A stretch of DNA of 21,772 bases from Syntrophaceae bacterium UBA2210 (GTDB taxonomy: Bacteria; Desulfobacterota; Syntrophia; Syntrophales; UBA2210): contig DCUQ01000045.1 of NCBI GenBank assembly GCA_002327865.1, forward strand, positions 1-21,772, read 5' to 3'. A program made the translations under genes and the position numbers. The notes under the pieces were generated by a model. It did no database searches. It was not told the DNA's origin and worked only from the letters and a program-made list of their open reading frames with translations. Below, in pieces: positions 51-20,526 of this stretch (position 1 is the stretch's first letter; every line of letters begins with the position of its first letter).

Positions 51-1139
51 TTACATCTTGAGAGCCGATCTCATGATTCCTTCAATTAGTTCCGTAGCAA
101 AGTCATAGATGTGGTCAGGATCATTCACGCCTTGCCTGCCTGCCAGGCGGCAGTTAAATTCGTTTAAATCAAAACCGACCAGTTTTTTCCCGTCTTTTTT
201 GAACAATGATTCAATGACTGCCATAATTTTTTTGATTTGGGCGGCAGCCAACCCCTCCCAGTGAGTAAAGCGAACAGCCTCTACCGCGTTTCTGGATCCG
301 ATATCCAGATCGATAGAGAGATATATGTAGGGTGTTTTAATCCTCTGTATAATATTTTTTAATTTAAATGGTGTTGTTCGGTAATCCTTCTTTGTTATGA
401 TTTTTACGCCCTCTTTCTTTAAACATGAAAATGCGTTTACATAATCGACGATTCTTCTGTCCTTAATCTGGAAGGCCGTTTTTGAAGGATAGTCGCTTAT
501 TCCGATTAAGTACAGGTTCTCAGGTTCTACAATTTCTTCGGAAAGCAGAGTGCGAAGAAAAGAGCTGGCATTGTAAGAGTCTTTGCGATCGTATAAAAGA
601 GGATCATTTTTATCGTGAACGGAATGTCGATTTGTTTCAATGTCGTAGTGAATTGCGCCAAGAGTAGCCGATATGGGAATCGCGTCCGTATGGCTGTCGA
701 GTACGATCAGCGAAACGTTTTCCGGTCCGTAATACTCGGAGACAGCCTTAAAACACCCCCCGGTCAAGCAATGGTCGACTACAATCATTCCCGGAATATC
801 AGGCAAAATTTTATCTTTAACCAGTTTCTCAACTTTGTCCACATATTCCAGGTATCCACTACCTTCTATAAATTTGATGAACGCGTCAGCATTGACTCTG
901 TCCAAAACAGAAAGTGGCGGTTGGGGACGTAACCACGAAGGAACCTCGATAGAACCAAGGGATTGCCAGTAATTTTCGGGTATCTTCTGAGATACAAGAT
1001 TCATTACTTTGACGAGAGGATCTTCTTCCTGGTCAACACGCCATTTTTGTGCGTGTTTTTCTTCAATCGAAACATGCTGTTCGTCGCAATCGATAGGACA
1101 ACCAAAAAAAAATACTTTCTTGTCGGTAGTATCAAGCAT
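51..1139 (-). CDS. Arginase-fold (ureohydrolase-like) metallohydrolase, UPF0489-like
   Basis: A 362-aa protein that keeps all the metal ligands expected of the arginase/agmatinase fold. These are DH at 122-123 (like the GGDHS histidine), D148-x-H150-x-D152 (the DAHxD motif, here LDSHTDA) and D277-x-D279 (SIDLDI). FDLNEFN at 323-329 resembles the C-terminal DxxExN stretch with the catalytic glutamate. The flanking sequence is unlike true arginases: the glycines before DH are missing and the N-terminus is about 110 residues before the first ligand. It resembles the uncharacterised UPF0489-type branch of the superfamily, so the substrate is unknown. No signal peptide or membrane segment is visible. 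The ATG at 1139 has no clear ribosome site; a TTGACA on the minus strand (1174-1169) may be its -35 box. It is monocistronic here and divergent from the zapB-like gene. A run of nine T's lies in codons 9-12. Confidence 0.8.
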   Translation of the reverse strand: MLDTTDKKVFFFGCPIDCDEQHVSIEEKHAQKWRVDQEEDPLVKVMNLVSQKIPENYWQSLGSIEVPSWLRPQPPLSVLDRVNADAFIKFIEGSGYLEYVDKVEKLVKDKILPDIPGMIVVDHCLTGGCFKAVSEYYGPENVSLIVLDSHTDAIPISATLGAIHYDIETNRHSVHDKNDPLLYDRKDSYNASSFLRTLLSEEIVEPENLYLIGISDYPSKTAFQIKDRRIVDYVNAFSCLKKEGVKIITKKDYRTTPFKLKNIIQRIKTPYIYLSIDLDIGSRNAVEAVRFTHWEGLAAAQIKKIMAVIESLFKKDGKKLVGFDLNEFNCRLAGRQGVNDPDHIYDFATELIEGIMRSALKM

Positions 1140-1651: not shown

Positions 1652-1978
1652 ATGGAGAAACAGCATTTGAAGAAGCGTTTCGACATAAAGGTTATAGGAC
1701 ATGATTTTTCAGTTCTGAGTGATAAAGGGGATGAACATGTAAGTAAGATTGTTCAGCATGTAAACGAGAGGGCAAGGGAAATAGGAGATGCCTCAAAAGA
1801 TGTAACGATTTCAGATATTGCCATATTGGTTGCTTTGAATATTACGGAAGAATTGTTTCGAGTACGAGGAGAAAAGGAAGACCTGCTTAGCAGGTTCGAA
1901 GGTGAGATCGAAGAATTAATCAGTTATATAGACGAAAAAAGCAAATCAACCCCCTGCGATGTGCGTGACAGCCTTTAG
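1652..1978 (+). CDS. zapA: Cell division protein ZapA
   Basis: A 108-aa protein with the ZapA plan: an N-terminal beta-rich head (FDIKVIGHDFSVLSD), a middle segment of the DEHVSKIVQHVNERAREI type, ISDIAILVALNITEELF, and a C-terminal acidic coiled coil. ZapA binds FtsZ filaments in the cytoplasm and promotes their bundling at the division site. The ATG at 1652 follows the zapB-like stop by 7 nt and lacks a strong ribosome site of its own, suggesting translational coupling. The probable 6S RNA gene directly follows, as in gammaproteobacteria, where ssrS lies next to zapA (ygfE). Confidence 0.88.
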   Translation: MEKQHLKKRFDIKVIGHDFSVLSDKGDEHVSKIVQHVNERAREIGDASKDVTISDIAILVALNITEELFRVRGEKEDLLSRFEGEIEELISYIDEKSKSTPCDVRDSL

Positions 1979-1984
1979 TTTTTT

Positions 1985-2165
1985 TGAACCAACACCTTAT
2001 GATCGTGGGGCCCTTCCTTGTTAGTGGTGTGCATGGCCACCGTCTCTCCGCGAGGATAGCGGTGGAAAGCCTGAAACGACAACAGGGCGCCAATTCTTTT
2101 GTAAGGTTCAAAGAAGATGGTTGTTACGGCATAGGCGGGGGAGAAATATGGCAAGATCAGTTTCA
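1985..2165 (+). ncRNA. ssrS: Probable 6S RNA
   Basis: About 180 nt with no credible ORF, directly after zapA, the usual place of ssrS. It can fold as a long rod. A terminal helix forms from TGATC (2000-2004) with GATCA (2155-2159), continued by 2010-2017 with 2139-2152. Opposed unpaired stretches (about 2018-2034 and 2121-2134) would form the central bubble. The apical part holds hairpins CCACCG/CGGTGG (2037-2042/2060-2065), CCTG/CAGG (2070-2073/2082-2085) and TTCTTT/AAAGAA (2094-2099/2110-2115). Short blocks recall E. coli 6S RNA: an AAGCCT..AAAC..CGAC stretch, then GGTTCAA, then GGTT..TTAC.GC. 6S RNA mimics an open promoter and sequesters sigma70 RNA polymerase. The ends are estimates; T-rich sequence follows at 2161-2172. 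No covariance search was possible. Confidence 0.6.
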
Positions 2166-8789: not shown

Positions 8790-11700
8790 GTGGTTAAAGA
8801 TAATGATAAAGTAGGCGCCGTAATGGTTGTCGGTTCGGGAATAGCCGGTATTCAGGCTTCTCTGGACCTGGCGAATTCGGGTATGAAGGTATACCTCGTT
8901 GAAAATGATATCAGCATCGGCGGTATCATGGCTCAGCTCGACAAGACGTTTCCTACCAATGATTGTTCGGCGTGTATTCTTTCGCCCAAACTTGTTGAAG
9001 TCGGGCGACATCCGAATGTGGAAATCCTTACAAACAGAACGGTACAATCGCTTGAAGGAGAAGCGGGGAATTTTGAAGTAAAACTCAAAAACGCGCCGCG
9101 GTTTGTTGATGTTAATAAGTGTACGGGATGCGGTGATTGCGCGAATGTCTGCCCTGTAACCGTAACAAATGATTTCAATGAAGGGCTGGATCAGAGGAAG
9201 GCCATATACCGCAGGTTCCCCCAGGCGATTCCAAGCGCATTCGCAATAGAGAAAATAGGAACAGCTCCCTGTAAGGCCGCCTGTCCCACCCATATCAGTG
9301 TACAGGGGTACGTAGCATTGATAGCCGAGGGTAAGTATAAAGAAGCCCTTGAGCTCATCAAACAGGAAAATCCATTCCCCGCCGTCTGCGGAAGGGTTTG
9401 TAATCATCCTTGCGAATCTGCCTGTAAAAGGGGAGAAGTTGATGAACCCATATCGATAATGTATCTGAAAAGGTTCGTCGCCGATCTCGATCTGAATGAT
9501 GAAACGAAATTTGTCCCGGAAATAAAAGAGAGAAAAGATAAGAAAGTGGCAATAATAGGTGCCGGTCCCGCGGGATTGAGCGCGGCTTATTATCTCGCCA
9601 TTGAGGGATATCAGGTTACCGTGCTTGAAGCGCTTCCAGTTGCCGGAGGTATGCTTACAGTGGGTATCCCCGAATACCGTCTGCCAAAGGATGTCCTTAA
9701 TGCCGAAATAAAAACCATTGAAGATATGGGTGTCGAGATCAGATTGAATACTAAGGTAGGCACGGACGTTTCAATGGATTCCCTGAAAAAGGATTTTGAC
9801 GCTGTTTTCATCGGAGTCGGTTCGCATGTGAGTAGTAAACTCAATGTTCCCGGCGAGGAGATGGAAGGCGTTGTCCATGGCATCGATTTTCTGAGGAGAG
9901 TCGCTCTCGGTGAAAAAGTATTTCTGGGGAACCGCGTGGCCGTTGTGGGGGGCGGTAATGTTGCGATGGATGCCGTCCGGACCGCGTTGCGTACCGGTTC
10001 AAAAGAAGCGTTCGTTCTTTACAGAAGGACGCGTGCTGAAATGCCCGCTTCGCCGGAAGAAATAGAAGAAGCCCTTCAGGAAGGAATCAACATGGAGTTC
10101 CTGGCGGCTCCGGTGAAGGTAATCGGCGATAGCGGAAAAGTCACGGGTATAGAATGTATCAGAATGGAACTGGGAGAACCGGATGAGAGCGGGCGCAGAC
10201 GTCCCGTTCCAATTAAGGGTTCGGAATTCACCATAAGTGTTGATGCTGTTATTCCCGCTATCGGCCAGAAGAGCGATCTTTCGTTCGTTTCGGAAGAAAG
10301 CAGTATAGCCATCAACAGATGGAACACTTTCGACGTTGATCCCGTTACCTTCGCGACCAATGTGGAAGGTGTATTCGCCGGTGGCGACGATGTTACCGGT
10401 CCGGCCACGGTCGTGGAAGCGATCAACGCCGGTAAAGAAGCAGCCAAATCGATTGACCGCTTCCTCAGGGGTGAGGATATCGCACTTGGTCGGGATCGTG
10501 ACTGGAAGGAAGGTGTTGCCGATAAGGCGGATGTAAGTGAAACGCCCAAGGAGAGCCGTCCCAGGTTGCGAGAACTTGATCCCGGCGAACGGAAAACGCA
10601 TTTTAAGGAAGTTGTTGAGGCATACAGTGAGGAAGAAGCTGTAAAAGAGGCAAAGCGATGTCTCAGCTGCGGTGTCTGTTCGGAGTGTTATCAGTGTGTT
10701 AACGCCTGTATTGCCGGTGCTATCAACCATGAGATGAAAGAAACTGAGGAAACAATCCAGGTCGGTGCGGTCATTGCGGCGCCCGGTACCGAGCTTTTCA
10801 ATGCTTCTCTCCGGGGTGAGTACGGGTTCGGTATTTACGATAATGTTGTAACCAGTATCCAGTTCGAGCGGATTCTGTCCGCCTCAGGCCCTTATTTTGG
10901 ACATGTGCAGCGTATCTCCGACGGATTGGAACCTAAGAAGGTTGCTTTTATACAGTGCGTAGGCTCGCGTGATGTGAACTGTGGAAACAGCTGGTGTTCG
11001 TCGGTTTGCTGCATGTACGCTACCAAGGAAGCGATCATCGGCAAGGAACATGCGAAGGGGATGGAGCCGACAATCTTCTACATGGATATCCGTGCTTACG
11101 GCAAGGATTTTGATAGATTTGTCACGCGGGCAAAGGATGAATACGGAATCAGGTATATCAGATCCATGCCTTCGTCCGTAAAGGAATTACAACGGACAAA
11201 AAATCTTCTTCTTACCTATGTAAAAGAAGACGATGGTACTCTCGTGGAAGAAGAATTCGATATGGTCGTTCTTTCCGTGGGACTTCTTCCACCCAGGGAA
11301 GCGAGAAATCTTGCTCAGAATCTCGGAGTCGAACTGGAAGAGCATGGTTTCTGCCGGACCGCTCTGGATAATCCCGTGCAGACCTCGCGTGAAGGCGTTT
11401 TCGTCTGTGGAGTTTTCGGGGGTCCCAAAGACATTCCTGAAACGGTTATGGAGGCGAGCAGCGCAGCTGCCTGTGCCGGGGGACTTCTTGCTTCTCAACG
11501 TGGCACCATGATTTCCGAAGAAGAACTTCCGCTTGAAAAGGATCTGAGAGGTATTGGTCCGAGAGTAGGTGTATTTGTGTGTCACTGCGGTATAAACATC
11601 GGCGGTGTGGTGGATGTGCCCGCCGTAGTCGAATATGCCAGGACACTTCCCAACGTTGTCTATGTTGAGGACAACCTGTTTACCTGTTCCCAGGATACGG

Positions 11701-13217
11701 CGGTAAAGATGGGAGAGGTAATTAAAGAACAGAATCTGACCCGGGTTGTTGTAGCATCCTGCTCGCCCAGAACGCATGAGCCGCTGTTTCAGGAAAACTG
11801 TGAAAAGGCGGGTCTTAACAGATATCTCTTCGAGATGGCGAACATCAGGGATCATGATTCATGGGTCCACATGAATGAACCGGAGGCGGCCACTGTAAAG
11901 GCAAAGGATCTGGTTCGCATGGCGGTTGCAAAATCCCAGTATCTGGTGCCGCTGAAACCGGGACAGCTGGGCGTAAACAAGGCTGCGTTGATTATCGGCG
12001 GAGGGTTGGCTGGTATTACGGCGGCACTTTCTCTCGCCGATCAGGGATTCGAATCACACCTGGTTGAGAAGGAGGACAAACTGGGTGGTAATTACAGCAA
12101 GCTTTGCTATACCCTGGAGGGAATGGATACCATACAGCACCTGGCCGGTCTTCTTGATCGTGTTGAAAAGAGTGAGCTTATCCACGTCTATACAGGTGCC
12201 GAAATAAAGAACATCGAAGGCTTTATCGGCAACTACAAAACTACAGTTGAAACCGGTGGGAAAGAGCATCAATTCGAGCACGGTGTTGTAATTGTCTCAA
12301 CCGGCGCCTATGAGAACAAGACAACGGAATATCTTTACGGCCAGCATGAGCGCGTGGTGACCCAGCGTGAACTGGAAGAGATGCTATATAAAAAGGATGA
12401 GAAAGTCGCTAAGGCAAAGAGTGTTGTAATGATCCAGTGTGTCGGCTCACGTTGCGAGGAAAGGCCCTATTGCAGCAGATACTGTTGCAGCGAAGCTATT
12501 AAGAACGCTTTGAAGCTGAAAGAAGCCGATCCTGATACGGATGTAACAATTCTTTACAGGGATATAAGGACGTACGGGCTCAAAGAGGATTACTATAAGA
12601 AAGCACGTGAAGCCAATGTAAAGTTCGTCCATTACGAAGAAGATATGAAACCGGAGGTGACCGGTAACGGATCGAAAGTAACGATATCATCCTTCGACTA
12701 TATATTACAAAAGAAGATAAAGATGGAACCCGACCTGCTCGTACTGAGCGTGGGTACGGTACCCAATCCTGATAATGACAATATTGCAATGAGGCTCAAG
12801 GTCCCGGTAAACCAGGATGGATTCTTCCTTGAGGCCCACGTGAAATTGCGTCCCGTGGATTTTGCCACCGACGGTGTGTTCATGTGCGGTATGGCCCATT
12901 CACCTAAGATGAGTGACGAGGCTATCTCTCAGGCAAATGCCGCCGTATCCAGGGCGTGCACTATTCTGACCAAGGATTTCATTCAGGCTGAAGGAAAGAC
13001 GGCCTTTGTAAACGAAGCGCGGTGTATGGCCTGTGGTCTCTGCGAGGAAAACTGTCCCTTCGGCGCCATAGCGGTCGATATGAGTAAGGGATGTGCCGTA
13101 GTCAATGCTGTATTATGTAAGGGCTGTGGTGTATGTACCGCATCATGCAGGATGAATGCCGTCGATCTTAACGGCTTTAATAATGAAGAAATACTGGCAC
13201 AGATAGCGGCTTTATAA
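8790..13217 (+). CDS. hdrA: Giant HdrA-NfnB-HdrA fusion (flavin/Fe-S heterodisulfide reductase subunit A)
   Basis: A 1475-aa cytoplasmic flavoprotein, about twice the usual HdrA. Unit 1: FAD fold with GSGIAG (15-20), first ferredoxin motif C111/C114/C117/C121. Insert (about 156-628): NfnB/GltD-like module with TAPCKAACP (C161, C165), C200/C204/C208/C212, a first Rossmann motif GAGPAG (257-262), a second GGGNVA (387-392), GEPDESGRRRPVP and FAGGDD (529-533); it ends in YSEEEAVKEAKRCLSC (612-627). Unit 1 resumes with the second ferredoxin motif C630/C633/C636/C640, QCVGSR (722-727) and a CC pair (740-741). Unit 2: HdrA N-terminal CHCG domain (931-934), FAD fold GGGLAG (1070-1075), QCVGSR (1216-1221) with CC 1232-1233, and two C-terminal [4Fe-4S] motifs (1412-1422, 1443-1453). 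HdrA normally splits electrons at its flavin between ferredoxin and HdrBC; here an NADPH-type site is built in. GTG start, ribosome site GAGGTG. The order of domains is seen; the function is inferred. Confidence 0.9.
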   Translation: MVKDNDKVGAVMVVGSGIAGIQASLDLANSGMKVYLVENDISIGGIMAQLDKTFPTNDCSACILSPKLVEVGRHPNVEILTNRTVQSLEGEAGNFEVKLKNAPRFVDVNKCTGCGDCANVCPVTVTNDFNEGLDQRKAIYRRFPQAIPSAFAIEKIGTAPCKAACPTHISVQGYVALIAEGKYKEALELIKQENPFPAVCGRVCNHPCESACKRGEVDEPISIMYLKRFVADLDLNDETKFVPEIKERKDKKVAIIGAGPAGLSAAYYLAIEGYQVTVLEALPVAGGMLTVGIPEYRLPKDVLNAEIKTIEDMGVEIRLNTKVGTDVSMDSLKKDFDAVFIGVGSHVSSKLNVPGEEMEGVVHGIDFLRRVALGEKVFLGNRVAVVGGGNVAMDAVRTALRTGSKEAFVLYRRTRAEMPASPEEIEEALQEGINMEFLAAPVKVIGDSGKVTGIECIRMELGEPDESGRRRPVPIKGSEFTISVDAVIPAIGQKSDLSFVSEESSIAINRWNTFDVDPVTFATNVEGVFAGGDDVTGPATVVEAINAGKEAAKSIDRFLRGEDIALGRDRDWKEGVADKADVSETPKESRPRLRELDPGERKTHFKEVVEAYSEEEAVKEAKRCLSCGVCSECYQCVNACIAGAINHEMKETEETIQVGAVIAAPGTELFNASLRGEYGFGIYDNVVTSIQFERILSASGPYFGHVQRISDGLEPKKVAFIQCVGSRDVNCGNSWCSSVCCMYATKEAIIGKEHAKGMEPTIFYMDIRAYGKDFDRFVTRAKDEYGIRYIRSMPSSVKELQRTKNLLLTYVKEDDGTLVEEEFDMVVLSVGLLPPREARNLAQNLGVELEEHGFCRTALDNPVQTSREGVFVCGVFGGPKDIPETVMEASSAAACAGGLLASQRGTMISEEELPLEKDLRGIGPRVGVFVCHCGINIGGVVDVPAVVEYARTLPNVVYVEDNLFTCSQDTAVKMGEVIKEQNLTRVVVASCSPRTHEPLFQENCEKAGLNRYLFEMANIRDHDSWVHMNEPEAATVKAKDLVRMAVAKSQYLVPLKPGQLGVNKAALIIGGGLAGITAALSLADQGFESHLVEKEDKLGGNYSKLCYTLEGMDTIQHLAGLLDRVEKSELIHVYTGAEIKNIEGFIGNYKTTVETGGKEHQFEHGVVIVSTGAYENKTTEYLYGQHERVVTQRELEEMLYKKDEKVAKAKSVVMIQCVGSRCEERPYCSRYCCSEAIKNALKLKEADPDTDVTILYRDIRTYGLKEDYYKKAREANVKFVHYEEDMKPEVTGNGSKVTISSFDYILQKKIKMEPDLLVLSVGTVPNPDNDNIAMRLKVPVNQDGFFLEAHVKLRPVDFATDGVFMCGMAHSPKMSDEAISQANAAVSRACTILTKDFIQAEGKTAFVNEARCMACGLCEENCPFGAIAVDMSKGCAVVNAVLCKGCGVCTASCRMNAVDLNGFNNEEILAQIAAL

Positions 13218-13245: not shown

Positions 13246-13683
13246 ATGACTGATAATAAAGCAAATGAAAACTGGGAACCCAAAATTATAGCCTTTGTAT
13301 GTAACTGGTGTACCTATGCGGGAGCGGACCTGGCAGGGATCAGCAGGCTCCAGTATCCTCCGAATGTGAGACTCGTGCGGTTGCCCTGTTCGGGAAGAGT
13401 GAACCCGTTTTATGTTGTGAAGGCTCTTCAGGAAGGCGCCGATGGCGTTCTGGTCTCGGGATGTCATCCGGGAGAATGCCATTATTTAACGGGAAATTTA
13501 TCTGCACGTCGCAAGTTTTCCATGCTGAAAAATTTTCTTTCCTATGTCGGCATCGAACCGGACAGGACACTCTTTACCTGGGTTTCGGCATCTGAGGGAG
13601 AGAAATTTGCTAAAGTCGTGAAGGGCGTTACGGAGAAGGTGAAGGCACTGGGGCCGGCAAAGAAGCTGGTAAAGCAATTCTAA
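13246..13683 (+). CDS. flxD: MvhD/FlxD-type [2Fe-2S] electron-transfer subunit
   Basis: A 145-aa member of the MvhD family (hydrogenase iron-sulfur subunit), which passes electrons from the input module to the HdrA flavin. The five conserved cysteines are present: FVCNWC (C19, C22), LPCSGR (C49) and SGCHPGEC (C73, C78). The ATG at 13246 has ACGAGG five bases upstream and lies 28 nt after hdrA. In methanogens this subunit links a hydrogenase to HdrA. Here no hydrogenase genes are present and flavin/NAD subunits follow instead, so flxD is the better name. The name comes from the Flx-Hdr system of Desulfovibrio. Confidence 0.9.
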   Translation: MTDNKANENWEPKIIAFVCNWCTYAGADLAGISRLQYPPNVRLVRLPCSGRVNPFYVVKALQEGADGVLVSGCHPGECHYLTGNLSARRKFSMLKNFLSYVGIEPDRTLFTWVSASEGEKFAKVVKGVTEKVKALGPAKKLVKQF

Positions 13684-13733: not shown

Positions 13734-14741
13734 GTGGAAAATATAGAGAAGCAATTGAGGGAAGAGGCAAAAAAACTCCTTGCTGAAAAAAAGGTAGATG
13801 TAATTGTCGGGTATGAGGAAGGTACGCTTCCATATCAGGCTGCACCGTGTTTCATCGAGGATCCCGATAGTGTTGAAAAACTTGTATGGAATAAATTCTG
13901 TTCCATAAATCTGGCAAAGTATGTCCATGATATAATCTTTCAGCATCGGGAATCGCAGAAGAGAACCAAGCCGGAGGAAAGAACCAGGAAGATCGTAGGT
14001 ATCGTAGCCCGGGGGTGTACCACCCGGTCGATAGTCCTCCATCTGCAGGAGAAGCAGTATGAAAGGGATGAAGTCGTTATTATCGGTGTTCCCTGTACCG
14101 GTTATATTTCAAAGAAGAAACTTGCGGTTTCCGTTGAAGGGAAAGAAGTCACAGGATGTTCCGTCAGCGGTGACAAGGTTTCGGTAACGACAGCCGACGG
14201 TTCAAAAGATATTCCGCTTGCTGAGGTCCTCGCAGAGAATTGTCTTTCCTGTCGGTTTAATAATCCCGTTATATCGGATATCATGGTCGGCGATCCCGCT
14301 CCGGGAATGGATGCAGACAGCGAATACAAGGAAGTAGACAAGTTCGAAAGCCTCTCTGAAGAAGAGCGGTGGGCATATTTTACCAAGGAAATGGATAAAT
14401 GCATGCGTTGCTATGCATGCCGTAATACCTGTCCTTCCTGTTATTGTAAGGTGTGTTTTATCGAGCAGAGTCAACCCAAGTGGGTTGGTGCCGGTGTCGA
14501 CGAGACGGACACGCAGGTCTTTCAATTTATGAGAATGTTTCATATGGCCGGACGTTGTGTCGATTGTGGCTCATGTCTTGAAGTGTGCCCGATGGGTGTT
14601 GATTTAAGAACGTTTCTGAAAAAACTCGATAAAGACGCCTATAACCTGTTTGAATACAGAACGGGAGAGGCGCTCGACAAGATGCCGATCCTGGGCGTTC
14701 ATTCAATGGGCGATAAGGAAGAATTTATTTTTGAACCGTAA
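13734..14741 (+). CDS. flxC: FlxC-like protein: F420 hydrogenase/dehydrogenase beta-like N-part with two [4Fe-4S] clusters
   Basis: A 335-aa iron-sulfur protein. The first half carries IVARGCTTRS (C95), GVPCTGY (C121) and CLSCRFNNPVISDIMVGD (C170, C173), patterns reminiscent of the FrhB/FdhB family. The second half has two ferredoxin motifs, C223/C226/C229/C233 and C275/C278/C281/C285-P. Three extra cysteines (C236, C238, C241) in CPSCYCKVC directly follow the first motif. The GTG start at 13734 has GAGGA ten bases upstream. Its place between flxD and hdrC, and the presence of flxB and flxA downstream, point to the FlxC role in passing electrons from FlxAB to FlxD. No transmembrane segment is seen. 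Whether the N-part still binds a flavin cannot be judged from the sequence. Confidence 0.65.
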   Translation: MENIEKQLREEAKKLLAEKKVDVIVGYEEGTLPYQAAPCFIEDPDSVEKLVWNKFCSINLAKYVHDIIFQHRESQKRTKPEERTRKIVGIVARGCTTRSIVLHLQEKQYERDEVVIIGVPCTGYISKKKLAVSVEGKEVTGCSVSGDKVSVTTADGSKDIPLAEVLAENCLSCRFNNPVISDIMVGDPAPGMDADSEYKEVDKFESLSEEERWAYFTKEMDKCMRCYACRNTCPSCYCKVCFIEQSQPKWVGAGVDETDTQVFQFMRMFHMAGRCVDCGSCLEVCPMGVDLRTFLKKLDKDAYNLFEYRTGEALDKMPILGVHSMGDKEEFIFEP

Positions 14742-14762: not shown

Positions 14763-15290
14763 ATGGGTACTTTTTTAGAAGATGTTAATGAAAAAATCGG
14801 GGGGGTTCCCATCCAGAGTTGTTATCATTGCCGGAAATGTACGGCGGGGTGCCCGATAGCTTTTGCCATGGATTATAATCCCAATGCGATTATCAAGATG
14901 ATCCAGATGGGAGAGCGTGATGAGGTACTCAACAGTTCTACCATCTGGCTCTGTGCTTCCTGCGAGACCTGTGTGACACGATGTCCCAATAATGTTGATA
15001 TAGCCAGGATGATGGATGTCTTGAGAGAAATGGCCATCGATGCCAATGTCGGTGCCAGGGAAAAGAACATTCTCAAATTCCATGAGGCATTTCTTTCAAG
15101 TATTAAGTTGGGTGGACGGATTAACGAACCGATGATGATAGCGCTGTATAAGATGAAATCAGGCGATTATTTCTCGGATCTTGGTATGGGGATGAGTATG
15201 TTTATGAAAGGGAAGATCAAACTTCTGTCCCCGAAAACCAAGGATATGGGATCGGTAAGAAATATATTTAAATCAACCGGTAAAAAGTAG
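14763..15290 (+). CDS. hdrC: Heterodisulfide reductase subunit C
   Basis: A 175-aa iron-sulfur protein with two perfect [4Fe-4S] motifs: C20/C23/C26/C30 (SCYHCRKCTAGCP) and C64/C67/C70/C74 (CASCETCVTRCP). HdrC carries electrons from HdrA to the catalytic HdrB. The motif spacing and the WLCASCETC signature are typical of the family, and the length (about 175-190 aa) is normal. The ATG at 14763 follows flxC by 21 nt and has only a weak purine-rich site. It is followed by hdrB, the usual HdrC-HdrB order. Confidence 0.9.
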   Translation: MGTFLEDVNEKIGGVPIQSCYHCRKCTAGCPIAFAMDYNPNAIIKMIQMGERDEVLNSSTIWLCASCETCVTRCPNNVDIARMMDVLREMAIDANVGAREKNILKFHEAFLSSIKLGGRINEPMMIALYKMKSGDYFSDLGMGMSMFMKGKIKLLSPKTKDMGSVRNIFKSTGKK

Positions 15291-15323: not shown

Positions 15324-16172
15324 TTGAAAGTTTCATATTATCCAGGATGTTCGCTTCATGCCACGGGAAGAGAGTATGATGAGTCTGTAAAGGCTGTAAG
15401 CAAGGCTTTGGATATAGAGCTGAACGAGATAGACGACTGGTCCTGTTGCGGTGCATCATCCGCCCATATGACCAATTTTAAGCTGTCTGTGGCTCTGTCT
15501 GCCAGAAATATAATGGCTGCCGAGAAAAATGATTGGGATGTGATGGTTCCCTGTGCCGCCTGTTTTAACCGTTTCAAGTCGGCGCAGCATTATCTCAATA
15601 ACGATGAAGCGCTGAAGGCGGAAATCGAAGGCATCATCGGTAAGCAGTATAAGGGGAGTGTCGCTGTCAGAAACCCTATCGATATAATCTACAATGATAT
15701 CGGTGTCGATAAGCTGAGCAAGATGGTTACCAGGAAACTCGAAGGGCTCAAACCCGTTTCCTATTACGGTTGTCTTCTCCTCAGGCCTCCCGAGGTATGT
15801 GAGTTTGATGATTATGAGAACCCGGTTACGATGGACAGGTTAATGGAGAGCCTCGGCGCGGAACCCAAAAGATGGTCCTGCAAGACCGATTGTTGCGGGG
15901 GAAGCCTTACGCTGGGAAAGACAGAGATAGTAAAGCGCCTTGTCGGCAGACTGATGGCGATGGCGAGGGAGGCGGATGCAAACTGTATCGTTACCGCCTG
16001 TCCGGTCTGCTTTGCAAATCTCGATACAAGGGCGAGTGAGGCTGCCGCGTTGCCTGCTTTCTATTTTACGGAACTCATTGCGCTGGCTCTTGGCTTGAAA
16101 GGATCTGATGCGTGGTTTAAGATGCACAACGTAAACCCCGGACCCCTGCTCAGCTCGCTGGGATTGATCTAG
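15324..16172 (+). CDS. hdrB: Heterodisulfide reductase subunit B
   Basis: A 282-aa catalytic subunit with both CCG domains intact: C9, C41-C42, C77, C80 and C150, C190-C191, C226, C229. In methanogen HdrB these bind two noncubane [4Fe-4S] clusters that cleave the CoM-S-S-CoB disulfide. Bacteria of this type lack those coenzymes, so the natural substrate is probably another thiol/disulfide, perhaps on a protein such as DsrC; no dsrC is present in the window. The start is TTG 15324, placed 6 nt after a full AAGGAGG (15311-15317), so the start codon is well supported. It is followed 67 nt later by flxB. Confidence 0.92.
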   Translation: MKVSYYPGCSLHATGREYDESVKAVSKALDIELNEIDDWSCCGASSAHMTNFKLSVALSARNIMAAEKNDWDVMVPCAACFNRFKSAQHYLNNDEALKAEIEGIIGKQYKGSVAVRNPIDIIYNDIGVDKLSKMVTRKLEGLKPVSYYGCLLLRPPEVCEFDDYENPVTMDRLMESLGAEPKRWSCKTDCCGGSLTLGKTEIVKRLVGRLMAMAREADANCIVTACPVCFANLDTRASEAAALPAFYFTELIALALGLKGSDAWFKMHNVNPGPLLSSLGLI

Positions 16173-16239
16173 ATATATGCGGATAATTCTGCATTTTCTT
16201 TAAATATAGTTAACAATAATTGGCTTGCTAAGGAACGAT

Positions 16240-17265
16240 ATGGAAAAGAGAGTAATTAAAAAGGATGCCCTGGCCGGTATAATAAAGAATATATCGAAAG
16301 AAATGCCTGTGTACGCCCCGGTTCAGGAGGAAGACAATGTGCTCTTCAAGGTCCTGGAAGAGGGAATGGAGCCTCTCGTAACGTATGCAAACACTAAGAA
16401 CGCTCCGAAGAACTTTTTCTTTCCACAGACGGAAACCATGATGAAATTTTTCCGGACTGAGCGCGGAAGAGAGCTCTCGGAAGTAGTGGAAGACTCGGCC
16501 GATGCGGTGCTCTTTGGAGTCAGACCCTGTGATGCCAGAAGCTTTGTACTGCTCGATAACGTGTTTGATGATCCGAAATACAGGGATCCCTATTATATTT
16601 CAAGAAGAGAAAAAACGATCATTGTTTCACTGGCCTGTGTACACCCCCCATATACCACCTGTTTCTGCACGTCCGTGGGGGGACATCCGGTGTCTTCGGA
16701 AGGTTCCGATCTGCTGTTAACCGATCTCGGGGATGTTTATCTGGCCGAATTTCTGACGCCGAAGGGCGAACAACTTCTCAAAAAAATGGGTGATCTCGAG
16801 GCTGCGGATGAAGCATTGGATACCAGGAAGAACGATATATACGAGCAGTCCGAAAAGGAAATCAAATCACACATACCGGCGAAAGAAATAAAACCCTGGC
16901 TGGATGAGAACTTTGAGAATCCTTTCTGGGATACGATCCACAAGAGCTGTCTTGCGTGTGGAACCTGTACTTATCTCTGCCCCACCTGTCACTGTTTCGA
17001 TATCACGGATGAAGTCAAGGGGGGTGAGGGAAAGAGAATCCGGTCGTGGGATACATGCATGTCGTGGCTCTTTACTGTAGAAACGTCGGGTCACAACCCG
17101 AGAACATCACAAAAGCAGCGCTGGCGCCAGAGACTGATGCACAAGTTTAAATACTTCGTAGACAATTATAACGCTATCGCCTGTGTGGGTTGCGGGCGCT
17201 GTGTCATTAATTGTCCGGTTAATATCGATATCAGAAAAATCGTTACCGACATTTCGAAATTATAG
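16240..17265 (+). CDS. flxB: FlxB-like iron-sulfur subunit (sulfhydrogenase beta/AsrA-type)
   Basis: A 341-aa protein of the 4Fe-4S dicluster group that includes sulfhydrogenase beta and anaerobic sulfite reductase A. The N-terminal region has the family's FGVRPCDARSF (C97) and a VHPPYTTCFCTS segment. The C-terminal region has two [4Fe-4S] motifs, C237/C240/C243/C247 and C315/C318/C321/C325-P. It is expected to pair with FlxA and take its electrons. The start is ATG 16240, with AAGGAA four bases upstream; an in-frame TTG at 16225 would precede that site. It lies 15 nt before flxA. The flxB-flxA pair resembles asrAB, but no siroheme subunit (asrC) follows, which favours the Flx assignment. Confidence 0.8.
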   Translation: MEKRVIKKDALAGIIKNISKEMPVYAPVQEEDNVLFKVLEEGMEPLVTYANTKNAPKNFFFPQTETMMKFFRTERGRELSEVVEDSADAVLFGVRPCDARSFVLLDNVFDDPKYRDPYYISRREKTIIVSLACVHPPYTTCFCTSVGGHPVSSEGSDLLLTDLGDVYLAEFLTPKGEQLLKKMGDLEAADEALDTRKNDIYEQSEKEIKSHIPAKEIKPWLDENFENPFWDTIHKSCLACGTCTYLCPTCHCFDITDEVKGGEGKRIRSWDTCMSWLFTVETSGHNPRTSQKQRWRQRLMHKFKYFVDNYNAIACVGCGRCVINCPVNIDIRKIVTDISKL

Positions 17266-17280
17266 TTTTTGGAGATCTCA

Positions 17281-18123
17281 ATGCAAAAAAATCCTTATGT
17301 ACCCATACCTGTTGATGTAGATAAAATTATAACGGAAGTAACTACTAAAGATATCAAGACGTTTCGTTTTACTTTTGTTAATAAGGAAGATGAAGCGGCC
17401 TTTACATATCTTCCTGGCCAGTTTGCCGAACTGTCCATTCTGGGTAAGGGTGAGTCCCCCATAGGTATCGCATCTTCCCCTACCCAGCCGGGATACATAG
17501 AATTTACGGTCCAGAAGGCCGGTGTGGTTACATCGGAGCTTCACAGCATGGAAGCGGGACAGCGTATGGGAGTTAGAGGCCCACTTGGAAATACATGGCC
17601 CATTGAATATCTGGAGGGCAAAAATATCGTAATCGTAGGTGGAGGGTTCGCTTTTACTACCCTGAGATCCCTGATTAATTATATGATTTTCGAGGAAAAT
17701 CGTTCGAAGTTTGGAGACATTACCGTGGTATACGGGGCACGGGAACCGGGGCTTCTTATTTATAAGGATGAGATCACGGAGTGGGAAAAGAGGGATGACA
17801 TAAATATGAATGTCACCGTGGATAAGGGGGATGAAAACTGGTCAGGAAGAGAGGGATTCGTTCCCACCGTATGCAAAGAAGTCGCGCCCAGTTCGGAAAA
17901 CGCCGTTGCGGTAATATGCGGACCTCCCATAATGATTCGTTTTACACTGCCGGTTTTCTTCGATCTGGGATTTTCGAAGGAGAATATCTACACATCGCTT
18001 GAAATGCGGATGAAGTGCGGTATCGGAAAGTGCGGACGCTGTAACGTGGGCAGCAAATATGTCTGCAAAGATGGGCCTGTCTTCTCTCTGGCAGAATTGG
18101 ATAAACTCACAAAGGAATACTAA
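17281..18123 (+). CDS. flxA: FlxA-like FAD/NAD(P)-binding reductase subunit
   Basis: A 280-aa ferredoxin-NADP-reductase-type flavoprotein and the probable NAD(P)H entry point of the complex. The N-terminal FAD barrel has YLPGQFAEL and SPIGIASSP (59-67), followed by RGPLGN (99-104). The nucleotide-binding half starts at GGGFAF (120-125) and ends with CGPPIM. A C-terminal [2Fe-2S] site uses C246, C251, C254 and C262. The architecture matches sulfhydrogenase gamma/AsrB and FlxA of Desulfovibrio. The start is ATG 17281, with GGAGAT a few bases upstream; an in-frame TTG at 17269 lies before that site and is rejected. It is the last gene of the hdr-flx run, followed by a 179-nt hairpin-containing gap. 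Confidence 0.83.
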   Translation: MQKNPYVPIPVDVDKIITEVTTKDIKTFRFTFVNKEDEAAFTYLPGQFAELSILGKGESPIGIASSPTQPGYIEFTVQKAGVVTSELHSMEAGQRMGVRGPLGNTWPIEYLEGKNIVIVGGGFAFTTLRSLINYMIFEENRSKFGDITVVYGAREPGLLIYKDEITEWEKRDDINMNVTVDKGDENWSGREGFVPTVCKEVAPSSENAVAVICGPPIMIRFTLPVFFDLGFSKENIYTSLEMRMKCGIGKCGRCNVGSKYVCKDGPVFSLAELDKLTKEY

Positions 18124-18302: not shown

Positions 18303-19130
18303 TTGAACGAAATAGTAAGCTGTATTTCTTTGTCTGAAAATGTTTTCAAGATGGTAATCCGTGCGCCGGAGATTGCCACGAAGAGAAAAGCCGGGCAGTT
18401 TGTCGTCATCATGACCGAAGAGAAGGGGGAACGTATTCCCCTGACCATAGTTGATTCGGACAAAGACGAAGGAACCGTGACCATCATATTTCAGGTTGTC
18501 GGCAAGACTACGATGTGTCTGGCTGCCATGAAAGCGGGAGAAAACCTCTTTGCGGTTCTCGGTCCGCTCGGAAGACCTACGGAAATGGAAAATTTTGGGA
18601 CTGCTGTGGTGGTCGGCGGCGGTGTGGGTATCGGTGTCGCCTATCCGATAATTAAGGCCCTCAAAGAAGCCGGTAACGAGGTGATAGCCATTATCGGCGC
18701 AAGAACAAAGAATATATTGATTCTTGAAGATGAGATACGGGAAGTCTGTGACAGACTTATTGTATCGACCGATGACGGCAGTTATGGAGTTAAGGGATTT
18801 GTGACGAATGTGCTCAAAGAGCTTATCGATTCCGGGGTGACGATTAGCAGGGCATTCGCGATCGGTCCGGTTGTGATGATGAAGTTTGTGTGTGAAGTTA
18901 CGAGACCGTATAAGATAGAAACCATCGTAAGCCTGAATCCGATCATGGTGGACGCAACCGGCATGTGCGGTGCCTGTCGTGTCGCTGTCGGCGGAGAGAC
19001 AAAATTCGCATGCGTGGACGGTCCAGAGTTCGACGGCCATGCTGTCGACTTCGATCTTTTGATGAGCCGTCTCAGAATGTATGAGAATGAAGAGAAAGAA
19101 GCCAGAGAAGGATGTACGTGTCATGAGTAA
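18303..19130 (+). CDS. nfnA: NADH-dependent ferredoxin:NADP+ oxidoreductase subunit A
   Basis: A 275-aa small subunit of NfnAB (also called sulfide dehydrogenase beta or SudB). With NfnB it catalyses the reversible flavin-based bifurcating reaction linking NADPH to NAD+ and ferredoxin. The FAD-binding motif is ERIPLTIVD (43-51) and the NAD-binding loop is VGGGVGIGVAYP (104-115). The [2Fe-2S] site shows C222, C225 and C237 in MCGACRVAVGG...FACVDGPEFDGH. There is no fourth cysteine at the expected place; in structurally known NfnA the fourth ligand is an aspartate, and D217 (VDATGMC) fits. TTG start at 18303, AGGAG eight bases upstream (18290-18294). It overlaps nfnB by 8 nt. Confidence 0.93.
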   Translation: MNEIVSCISLSENVFKMVIRAPEIATKRKAGQFVVIMTEEKGERIPLTIVDSDKDEGTVTIIFQVVGKTTMCLAAMKAGENLFAVLGPLGRPTEMENFGTAVVVGGGVGIGVAYPIIKALKEAGNEVIAIIGARTKNILILEDEIREVCDRLIVSTDDGSYGVKGFVTNVLKELIDSGVTISRAFAIGPVVMMKFVCEVTRPYKIETIVSLNPIMVDATGMCGACRVAVGGETKFACVDGPEFDGHAVDFDLLMSRLRMYENEEKEAREGCTCHE

Positions 19131-20526
19131 GAAAGAAAAAGTTCCCAGACAGGTTATGCCGGAGCAGGATCCGGAGGTCCGCAGCAAGAATTTCGATGAG
19201 GTTCCGCTCGGCTATACGGAAGAACAGGCTGTCATCGAAGCCGGCAGGTGTCTGCAGTGCAAGAAACCGCTTTGCATGAAAGGGTGTCCCGTGGATGTCG
19301 ATATTCCGGGATTCATAAAATTGATTACCGAAAAGGAATTTACGGGAGCAGCCTGTCTGATCAAGGGGACAAATACCCTTCCCGCTATCTGCGGCAGGGT
19401 GTGTCCACAGGAGACTCAATGTGAGCAGTTGTGTGTTCTGGGTAAAAAGGGAGAGCCGGTTGCAATAGGGAGACTCGAGCGTTTTGCGGCCGATTATGAG
19501 CGCAATGCCGGTGCTGTCCGGATTCCCGAAGCTCCCGCATCGTCGGGTAAAAAGGTGGCCGTTGTCGGGTCCGGTCCGGCGGGGCTCACTATCGCCGGAG
19601 ATCTGGTAAAACTGGGCCACGGTGTAACCATATTCGAGGGTTTGCACAAAGCCGGAGGAGTTCTTATCTATGGAATTCCGGAATTCCGTCTCCCCAAGGG
19701 TATCGTAGATGCAGAGGTTTCTTATCTTGAAAAACTGGGGGTCGAAATCGTCAAAAATATCGTCATTGGAAGGGGTAAAACGGTTGACGATCTTCTTGAT
19801 GAAGGATTCGATGCCGTGTTCCTGGGGGTGGGTGCTGGTGCGCCGGTTTTCATGAATATCCCGGGAGAAAACCTGAGCGGTATCTATTCCGCTAACGAAT
19901 ATCTCACACGCTCTAATCTGATGAAGGCATACGCGTTCCCCGAGTACGATACGCCCATAGCGCGCGGGAAGAATGTGGCGGTTCTCGGTGCCGGTAACGT
20001 AACGATGGACTCCGCGAGAACGGCTCTACGTCTGGGCGCGGAGAAAGTTACTGTGGTCTATCGCCGGACGGAAGTCGAAATGCCGGCCAGGGCGGAGGAG
20101 ATTCATCACGCTAAAGAAGAGGGCGTGGAATTCAAACTTCTCACCAACCCGGTGGAATATATCGGAGACGAGAACGGGTGGGTCAAGGGGATGAAGTGTA
20201 TCCGGATGGAACTCGGAGAACCCGATGAATCGGGGAGACGCAGACCTGTTCCGGTAAAGGGGTCCGAGTTTATGATAGATGTGGATATGGTGATAGTGGC
20301 AATAGGAACGAATGCCAATCCTGTCATTCCCATCACAACGCCCGGTCTGGAGACAAACAGGTGGGGTTATATCGTGGCCGACGAAGAAACCGGCAAGACC
20401 AGCCGGCCTGGTGTATACGCGGGTGGAGATATCGTCACCGGTTCGGCGACCGTGATTTTAGCAATGGGTGCCGCCAAGAAGGCGGCCAGGGCCATAGACG
20501 CGTATCTCAAACAAGGCGATGCGTAA
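19123..20526 (+). CDS. nfnB: NADH-dependent ferredoxin:NADP+ oxidoreductase subunit B (GltD-like)
   Basis: A 467-aa large subunit of NfnAB, which binds the bifurcating FAD, NADP(H) and two [4Fe-4S] clusters. N-terminal iron-sulfur domain: C43/C46/C51/C55 and C90/C94/C100/C104. First Rossmann motif GSGPAG (149-154), second GAGNVT (289-294) followed by the NADP-type VVYRRTEVEMPA, then GEPDESGRRRPVP, and a final FAD loop YAGGDIVTGSAT (432-443). The start is ATG 19123 with AAGGAT nine bases upstream; an earlier in-frame ATG at 19081 lies deep in nfnA without a ribosome site. It overlaps the nfnA end, so the subunits are translationally coupled. It could be mistaken for the small subunit of glutamate synthase, but nfnA as neighbour and the absence of gltB favour NfnB. 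Confidence 0.93.
   Translation: MSKKEKVPRQVMPEQDPEVRSKNFDEVPLGYTEEQAVIEAGRCLQCKKPLCMKGCPVDVDIPGFIKLITEKEFTGAACLIKGTNTLPAICGRVCPQETQCEQLCVLGKKGEPVAIGRLERFAADYERNAGAVRIPEAPASSGKKVAVVGSGPAGLTIAGDLVKLGHGVTIFEGLHKAGGVLIYGIPEFRLPKGIVDAEVSYLEKLGVEIVKNIVIGRGKTVDDLLDEGFDAVFLGVGAGAPVFMNIPGENLSGIYSANEYLTRSNLMKAYAFPEYDTPIARGKNVAVLGAGNVTMDSARTALRLGAEKVTVVYRRTEVEMPARAEEIHHAKEEGVEFKLLTNPVEYIGDENGWVKGMKCIRMELGEPDESGRRRPVPVKGSEFMIDVDMVIVAIGTNANPVIPITTPGLETNRWGYIVADEETGKTSRPGVYAGGDIVTGSATVILAMGAAKKAARAIDAYLKQGDA

Follow-up and report, generated by a model that had tools for sequence, protein, structure and literature searches.

HdrA proteins joined to a glutamate synthase-type (GltD) module have been described before. 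HdrL of Desulfobacterium autotrophicum HRM2 is a large HdrA/glutamate synthase fusion with an adjoining mvhD, and was called unique to that strain; HdrL1 and HdrL3 carry selenocysteine, and dsrABC follow HdrL1 (PMC2702500). Beside Wood-Ljungdahl genes, an HdrL-like gene has been described together with mvhD and a fused formate dehydrogenase (PMC12142623). The flavin adenine dinucleotide (FAD) of the GltD module of StnC is described as non-bifurcating, and its proximal cluster is ligated by K170 or C114 depending on the state, at a place where NfnB has Glu (PMC10482914). In HdrA homologues a Lys near FAD N5 is conserved (PMC6405883), and further literature bears on the subject (PMC8097209, PMC5861303, PMC5109826, PMC10553843, PMC5736913, PMC7325909, PMC6085437). 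Here, we analyse a protein of this kind encoded at 8790..13217 of a 21,772-nucleotide stretch (the window: positions 1 to 21,772 of contig DCUQ01000045.1 of Syntrophaceae bacterium UBA2210), in which a whole GltD/NfnB-type module is lodged in the ferredoxin domain of a double HdrA. That the architecture is new was considered and rejected, since HdrA-GltD inserts are already in print (PMC9012536, 2022; PMC12054007, 2025; by description also HdrL, PMC2702500).

We consider it rather probable that the gene encodes a bacterial, bifurcating HdrA whose ferredoxin arm is predicted to be wired by a StnC-like module to the phosphorylated nicotinamide adenine dinucleotide, NADP(H) (the unphosphorylated form is written NAD(H)). 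The comparisons below refer to close relatives, i.e. the best 80 of 320 related stretches in named genomes, and to diverse loci, 80 of which were picked, among the matches listed for the 198 genomes described below, for length and flanks and not at random. The gene is organised as follows:

8790..13217, plus strand: HdrA-HdrA fusion with inserted GltD module (HdrL/type III HdrA-like), 1475 amino acids, GTG start
8790..9119, plus strand: HdrA unit 1, first part of the FAD-binding TrxR-like domain, residues 1-110, with C59/C62 inside
9120..9152, plus strand: ferredoxin motif 1, C111/C114/C117/C121, found in 80/80 close relatives and 20/20 diverse loci
9255..10676, plus strand: inserted GltD/NfnB-type module, residues about 156-629 (~474), from families, phmmer and superposition on 9bov_A
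9270..9425, plus strand: [4Fe-4S] ligand region of the module, C161, C165, C204, C208 and C212, with C200 variable
9468..9470, plus strand: K227, which aligns (counted by hand) with the proximal cluster ligand K170 of StnC and with the Glu of NfnB
9558..9575, plus strand: FAD-binding motif of the module, GAGPAG, residues 257-262
9948..10028, plus strand: nucleotide-binding motif GGGNVA ... YRR, residues 387-413, NADP type
10557..10673, plus strand: permuted segment, residues 590-628 (helix and RCLSC), corresponding to NfnB N-terminal residues 5-43
10677..10709, plus strand: ferredoxin motif 2, C630/C633/C636/C640
10710..11519, plus strand: remainder of HdrA unit 1 (residues 641-910), where K746 occupies the site of the FAD-N5 Lys
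11553..13217, plus strand: HdrA unit 2, with N-terminal cluster domain, TrxR-like domain and C-terminal 2x[4Fe-4S] domain

The reading frame 8790-13217 is intact (zero internal stops in the list of open reading frames and in the translation), and the split of the ferredoxin domain, proposed earlier from the letters alone for 9120..10709, is exact: the C111 codon begins at 9120, that of C640 finishes at 10709, and a whole GltD/NfnB-type module lies between the motifs. C111 and C630 stand 519 residues apart, versus 47 between the corresponding C254 and C301 of the solved HdrA 8rvu_a, a net insertion of ~472 residues. Fer4_20, Pyr_redox_2 and the GltD-type model PRK12771 are nested inside the HdrA matches (Pfam, NCBIfam), with PRK12771 the best GltD-type model (612 bits against a cut-off of 516, residues 157-659). 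The HdrA sequence had been said to continue normally around the insert, and it does so, with HdrA family matches on both sides; in the AlphaFold2 model the HdrA body is intact (423 residues superpose on 8rwn_A at 1.6 Å), as is the module (157..638 on 9bov_A, 470 residues, 1.5 Å). The TrxR-like domain of unit 2 is without the inserted ferredoxin domain. Motif 2 consists of the four cysteines first proposed, to which should be added that the preceding C624 and C627, omitted from that proposal, belong to the inserted module. In the relatives the two motifs are a median of 519 residues apart (range 519-545; 76/80 close loci in which a script detected both), and complete frames were found in 60 of the 80 close loci, 59 of them of at least 1400 amino acids and one (L023) of 557.

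The insert belongs to the StnC/NfnABC subclass of GltD/NfnB-type modules: it is complete, and its order is circularly permuted relative to NfnB. In phmmer alignments, residues 44-462 of Thermotoga maritima NfnB match residues 158-562, while NfnB 5-43 (the helix and RCLxC) match residues 590-628, and the same domain order is shared by StnC, 9bov_A and 9n5u_A. The permutation would bring both ends of the insert together at the cluster domain, an arrangement that suits insertion into a ferredoxin loop. The sequence-only reading had named an NfnB-like NADPH/FAD module; the fold is indeed complete and carries NADP-type motifs (GGGNVA, YRRTR), but the domain order is permuted and Lys replaces the Glu ligand. 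As proposed ligands we give C165, C204, C208 and K227 for the proximal cluster and C161, C212, C624 and C627 for the distal one, an assignment that follows the ligands of dihydropyrimidine dehydrogenase (DPD). Among the 16 motif cysteines (C456 lies outside the motifs and is uncounted) 15 are kept in 20/20 diverse loci and C200 in 11/20; the assignment is consistent with this, since only C200, which it leaves unused, is lost (9/20). The ligands expected for the two module clusters and the two ferredoxin-domain clusters are thus conserved in relatives.

In the arrangement we favour, NADP(H) would exchange hydride with the module FAD, which would be non-bifurcating, so that electrons would leave it singly via the proximal and then the distal cluster. 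From the latter (C627) they would reach the clusters in the ferredoxin domain of HdrA unit 1 (C630, only three residues on from C627) and then the unit-1 FAD, which retains the Lys linked to bifurcation. The arm that serves free ferredoxin in the methanogen HdrA would thereby become an NADP(H) port. In the operon of the window, the other ends would be formed by the Flx-like subunits, using NAD(H) and connected through MvhD, and by HdrB with a disulfide-type substrate. In net terms the enzyme could either bifurcate and reduce NADP+ or confurcate and oxidise NADPH. Through the insertion the enzyme has probably acquired an NADPH port of its own. It had been suggested that NADPH could feed or drain HdrA directly and without a separate Nfn complex: the first part is plausible, given a complete NADP-type module beside the HdrA cluster domain, and the second fails, as nfnA and nfnB lie at 18303-20526, directly behind the operon. 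The refuting condition attached to that suggestion, a module flavin well over 15 Å from every HdrA cluster, is badly framed: between the flavin and HdrA two module clusters are to be expected.

The module could instead be a side branch that adds an NADPH:ferredoxin exchange but leaves the ferredoxin arm in place, in which case ferredoxin would still dock at its domain of HdrA. Both HdrA ferredoxin motifs are kept and their clusters are still available, whereas in the model of type III HdrA the GltD domain possibly blocks the access of ferredoxin (PMC12054007); we regard this as unlikely.

Whether the inserted flavin bifurcates was judged from the residues of its site. By hand count on phmmer alignments, StnC K170 corresponds to K227 and StnC C114 to V171. 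K227 is Lys in 80/80 close relatives, and the position holds Lys in 71/80 and His in 9/80 diverse ones, while the separate NfnB of the window keeps its Glu ligand (LERF, in GRLERF). Considering that Lys stands at the NfnB Glu position, as in StnC, the flavin is probably a non-bifurcating wire. As for the HdrA flavins, the FAD-N5 Lys (K409 in HdrA numbering) has its unit 1 equivalent, K746, kept in 80/80 diverse loci, while the unit 2 equivalent, K1238, is Lys in only 44/80; the unit-1 FAD would thus be the bifurcating one. C62 of unit 1 (in DCSxC, present in unit 1 only) aligns with HdrA Cys197, and the N-terminal cluster domain is in unit 2, so that what a bifurcating HdrA combines (an N-terminal cluster domain and a Cys197 from the partner HdrA) is found here across the two units.

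A second bifurcating site, at which NADPH electrons would be split at the inserted FAD as in NfnB, besides a split at the HdrA FAD, has been suggested in print for ANME-1 HdrA9-11 (PMC9012536). It would agree with the retained FAD-site Arg and with an NfnA-type protein encoded nearby; yet none of the 80 close and 80 diverse relatives has the NfnB Glu ligand, its place being held by Lys or His, the domain order is permuted as in StnC, and NfnA (at least 60% identity) stands behind the operon in at least 20 of 46 loci and, in the window, beside an NfnB of its own. We therefore hold a second site to be improbable. A purely structural or regulatory role of the module, as a passenger without nucleotide turnover, is very hard to credit: nothing speaks for it directly (StnC does carry a catalytically inactive FdhF domain, PMC10482914), whereas nucleotide and cluster motifs are conserved in the 80 close and 20 diverse loci and the nucleotide signature of 77/80 diverse loci is of one or the other of two ordered types. 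An assembly chimera or frameshift artefact is ruled out for practical purposes by the junction common to relatives, which is identical in the 80 close loci from many assemblies (80/80 span the left junction) and recurs in at least 90 of 198 genomes.

Several points weigh against a StnC-like NADP(H) wire. The site differs from that of StnC in having V171 (80/80 close relatives) where StnC has its alternative ligand C114. The Arg of NfnB R201 and StnC R239 is present too, as R297 (79/79 close-relative rows with a letter), although it is not decisive on bifurcation, since the Arg contacting the NfnB FAD N5 is kept also in StnC. Lys versus Glu is a single residue, and to judge by the residues alone bifurcation would be compatible with the protein; the cluster assignment, moreover, leans partly on the DPD ligands. 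Lastly, an NAD-type signature occurs in 27/80 diverse relatives, and the NADPH label is not transferable to the whole family.

The fusion is widespread in bacteria. Of the close loci, 76/80 are titled Syntrophales, Syntrophobacterales, Syntrophaceae, Smithellaceae, Smithella, Syntrophus or Deltaproteobacteria, and the other four only 'bacterium', Pseudomonadota or Proteobacteria. The 198 genomes mentioned above belong to the phylum of Smithella SCADC, and the figure of at least 90 with a junction-spanning match (E 1.3e-34 or better), often several each, was counted by hand among the matches listed; identical junctions were also found in named partial proteins from Chloroflexi, Latescibacteria and Aerophobetes. 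A tree of the module (90 sequences: 56/81 inserts, 33/41 free-standing modules and one NfnB, drawn from 150 sequences, of which 137 covered the module core and 14 with unclear labels were excluded) mixes inserts and free-standing modules, with five changes between them, four forced by starred branches; the labels were assigned by a regular expression, and the rows include some partial proteins. A single origin of the insert finds no support in this tree.

The beta-2 nucleotide signature was of NADP type (YRR) in 50 of the 80 diverse loci, of NAD type (LE) in 27 and unclear in three. StnC and NfnB, both NADPH enzymes, carry YRR, and LE would denote NAD. A quick tree from which the insert was left out shows 10 changes of label; starred branches force at least seven. 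Partners were counted in the 73/80 diverse loci with at least 2.4 kb downstream (70 with readable signatures). They are Flx-like in the window and close loci and often MvhD with MetVF elsewhere: metV lies within 4 kb downstream in 46/73 (23 NAD type, 22 NADP type, one unreadable), whereas hydB and hydG follow in 6/73, all of NADP type, and Pfam confirms the identity of MetV and MetF in two loci. On raw counts metV goes with 23/25 NAD-type versus 22/45 NADP-type loci (Fisher p 0.00025), but the kinship-corrected association is not significant (on average 1.5-2.1 pairs agree, none disagrees and 2.9-5.5 do not differ), and a tie between nucleotide signature and metV partner is a lead only. Tentatively, and with more doubt than confidence, we suggest that HdrA-GltD forms a major bacterial class of Hdr whose ferredoxin arm is now an NAD(P)H port, which would couple Hdr bifurcation to NAD(P)H in place of ferredoxin; the port would be a plug-in whose NADP/NAD preference switched at least seven times and whose partners vary (Flx, MetVF and others).

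Behind the fusion gene the window encodes an operon (the Flx names of its subunits are taken from gene order) and an Nfn pair:

13246..13683, plus strand: MvhD/FlxD (PF02662)
13734..14741, plus strand: iron-sulfur protein with FrhB C-terminal-like and Fer4 domains, FlxC position (named by gene order)
14763..15290, plus strand: HdrC-like protein
15324..16172, plus strand: HdrB-like protein, two CCG domains
16225..17265, plus strand: HydB/AsrA-like Fe-S protein (FlxB position)
17269..18123, plus strand: HydG/AsrB-like FAD/NAD-binding [2Fe-2S] protein (FlxA position)
18303..19130, plus strand: NfnA, PRK06222 type
19081..20526, plus strand: separate NfnB, unpermuted, with the Glu ligand in GRLERF

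In a survey of 100 neighbourhoods (92 with usable position), the six downstream partners kept the same order in all 46 loci with at least 5.1 kb downstream, all of them close ones, and mvhD adjoined the gene in 46/46; one of these, L063, has a broken HdrA frame (694 amino acids) ahead of the partners. The NfnA count given above was made by hand and is a lower bound, as most of the 46 loci end about 6.2 kb downstream; matches of 29-33% were cross-matches to HydG and were excluded. EngB lies upstream in 43/65 loci. Concerning mvhD, 61 hits in the 80 close loci (including L061, L041, L049, L035, L042 and L068), four of them cut off, left 57, in 23 of which the codon corresponding to C73 of the window MvhD is TGA and probably encodes selenocysteine; 33 are stop-free and L023 has three TAA, while the window mvhD has Cys. 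Two loci encode proteins with a C-terminal MvhD (FlpD) domain, of 810 amino acids upstream of the HdrA-GltD gene (L106:10474-12906, minus strand) and of 709 amino acids downstream of it (L119:137-2266, minus strand). At the margins of the window, a 6S RNA (RF00013, 74.4 bits; 1948-2145, plus strand) lies between zapA (1652-1978), whose end it overlaps slightly, and the RNase Y gene; behind nfnB follows an ADP-ribosylglycohydrolase-family protein (PF03747; 20941-21714, plus strand), which matches the NCBIfam dinitrogenase reductase-activating hydrolase model far below cut-off.

If the arrangement holds, widespread Hdr complexes in syntrophs and their relatives would trade electrons directly with NADP(H)/NAD(H), and not with ferredoxin as usually drawn, and the energy balances of such organisms would change. 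Together, the residue (Lys or Glu) and the permutation allow HdrA-NfnB fusions potentially capable of bifurcating twice to be picked out rapidly by sequence. The fusion gene often clusters with mvhD, metV and metF, and such clusters are a testable system for NAD(P)H entry into bifurcating methylene-tetrahydrofolate reductases; on the tentative reading of HdrA-GltD as a major class, they would themselves be such reductases with a built-in NAD(P)H site, which would bear on the second acceptor of the Moorella-type enzyme.

In the excerpts available from the open PMC literature, we found no report that such fusions are permuted, have Lys in contrast to Glu, divide into NAD and NADP types or cluster with MetVF. 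Like HdrL, the window protein is a large HdrA/glutamate synthase-type fusion with mvhD next door (matched by description only, so that the same design is presumed); unlike it, the gene has the Cys form, a Flx-like operon and a wide distribution, and this bacterial spread contrasts both with 'unique for HRM2' (2009) and with the 9/1152 archaeal sequences of type III HdrA (2025). It resembles, again by description, ANME-1 HdrA9/10/11 in the ~500-residue NfnB-like insertion in the HdrA ferredoxin domain, although these are archaeal and were read as possibly having two bifurcation sites; the two units complement each other as described there for fused HdrA, in reversed order (PMC9012536). With type III HdrA it shares a GltD inside the inserted ferredoxin domain, where NAD(P)H was proposed to replace ferredoxin and NADH was deduced from GXGXXG (PMC12054007); the window has GXGXXA and YRR (NADP type) and a fused second HdrA unit. 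The GltD insert of type III HdrA and HdrA9-11 is thus present and the NAD-type GXGXXG absent, the latter being a reported property and not a defining one. The permuted module is that of StnC and NfnABC (8oh5, 9bov, 9n5u), and as in StnC, whose module feeds a [4Fe-4S] chain, Lys stands at the proximal cluster; in StnC, however, the module is part of a NuoG-like protein whose bifurcation is of HydBC type, rather than part of HdrA, and the StnC C114 is Val here. NfnB of NfnAB has the same GltD-type NADPH/FAD fold (44-46% identity over 394-409 aligned residues), but is unpermuted, has the Glu ligand and partners NfnA, whereas the window insert has neither that Glu nor the linear order. Work by Appel (2021) on HdrA(BC) modules may describe such fusions, and FlxABCD-HdrABC was reportedly described by Ramos (2015). 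Like the latter, the window unites MvhD/FlxD, HydB-like, HydG-like, HdrB and HdrC proteins with HdrA in one operon, but here HdrA is a double HdrA with an insert.
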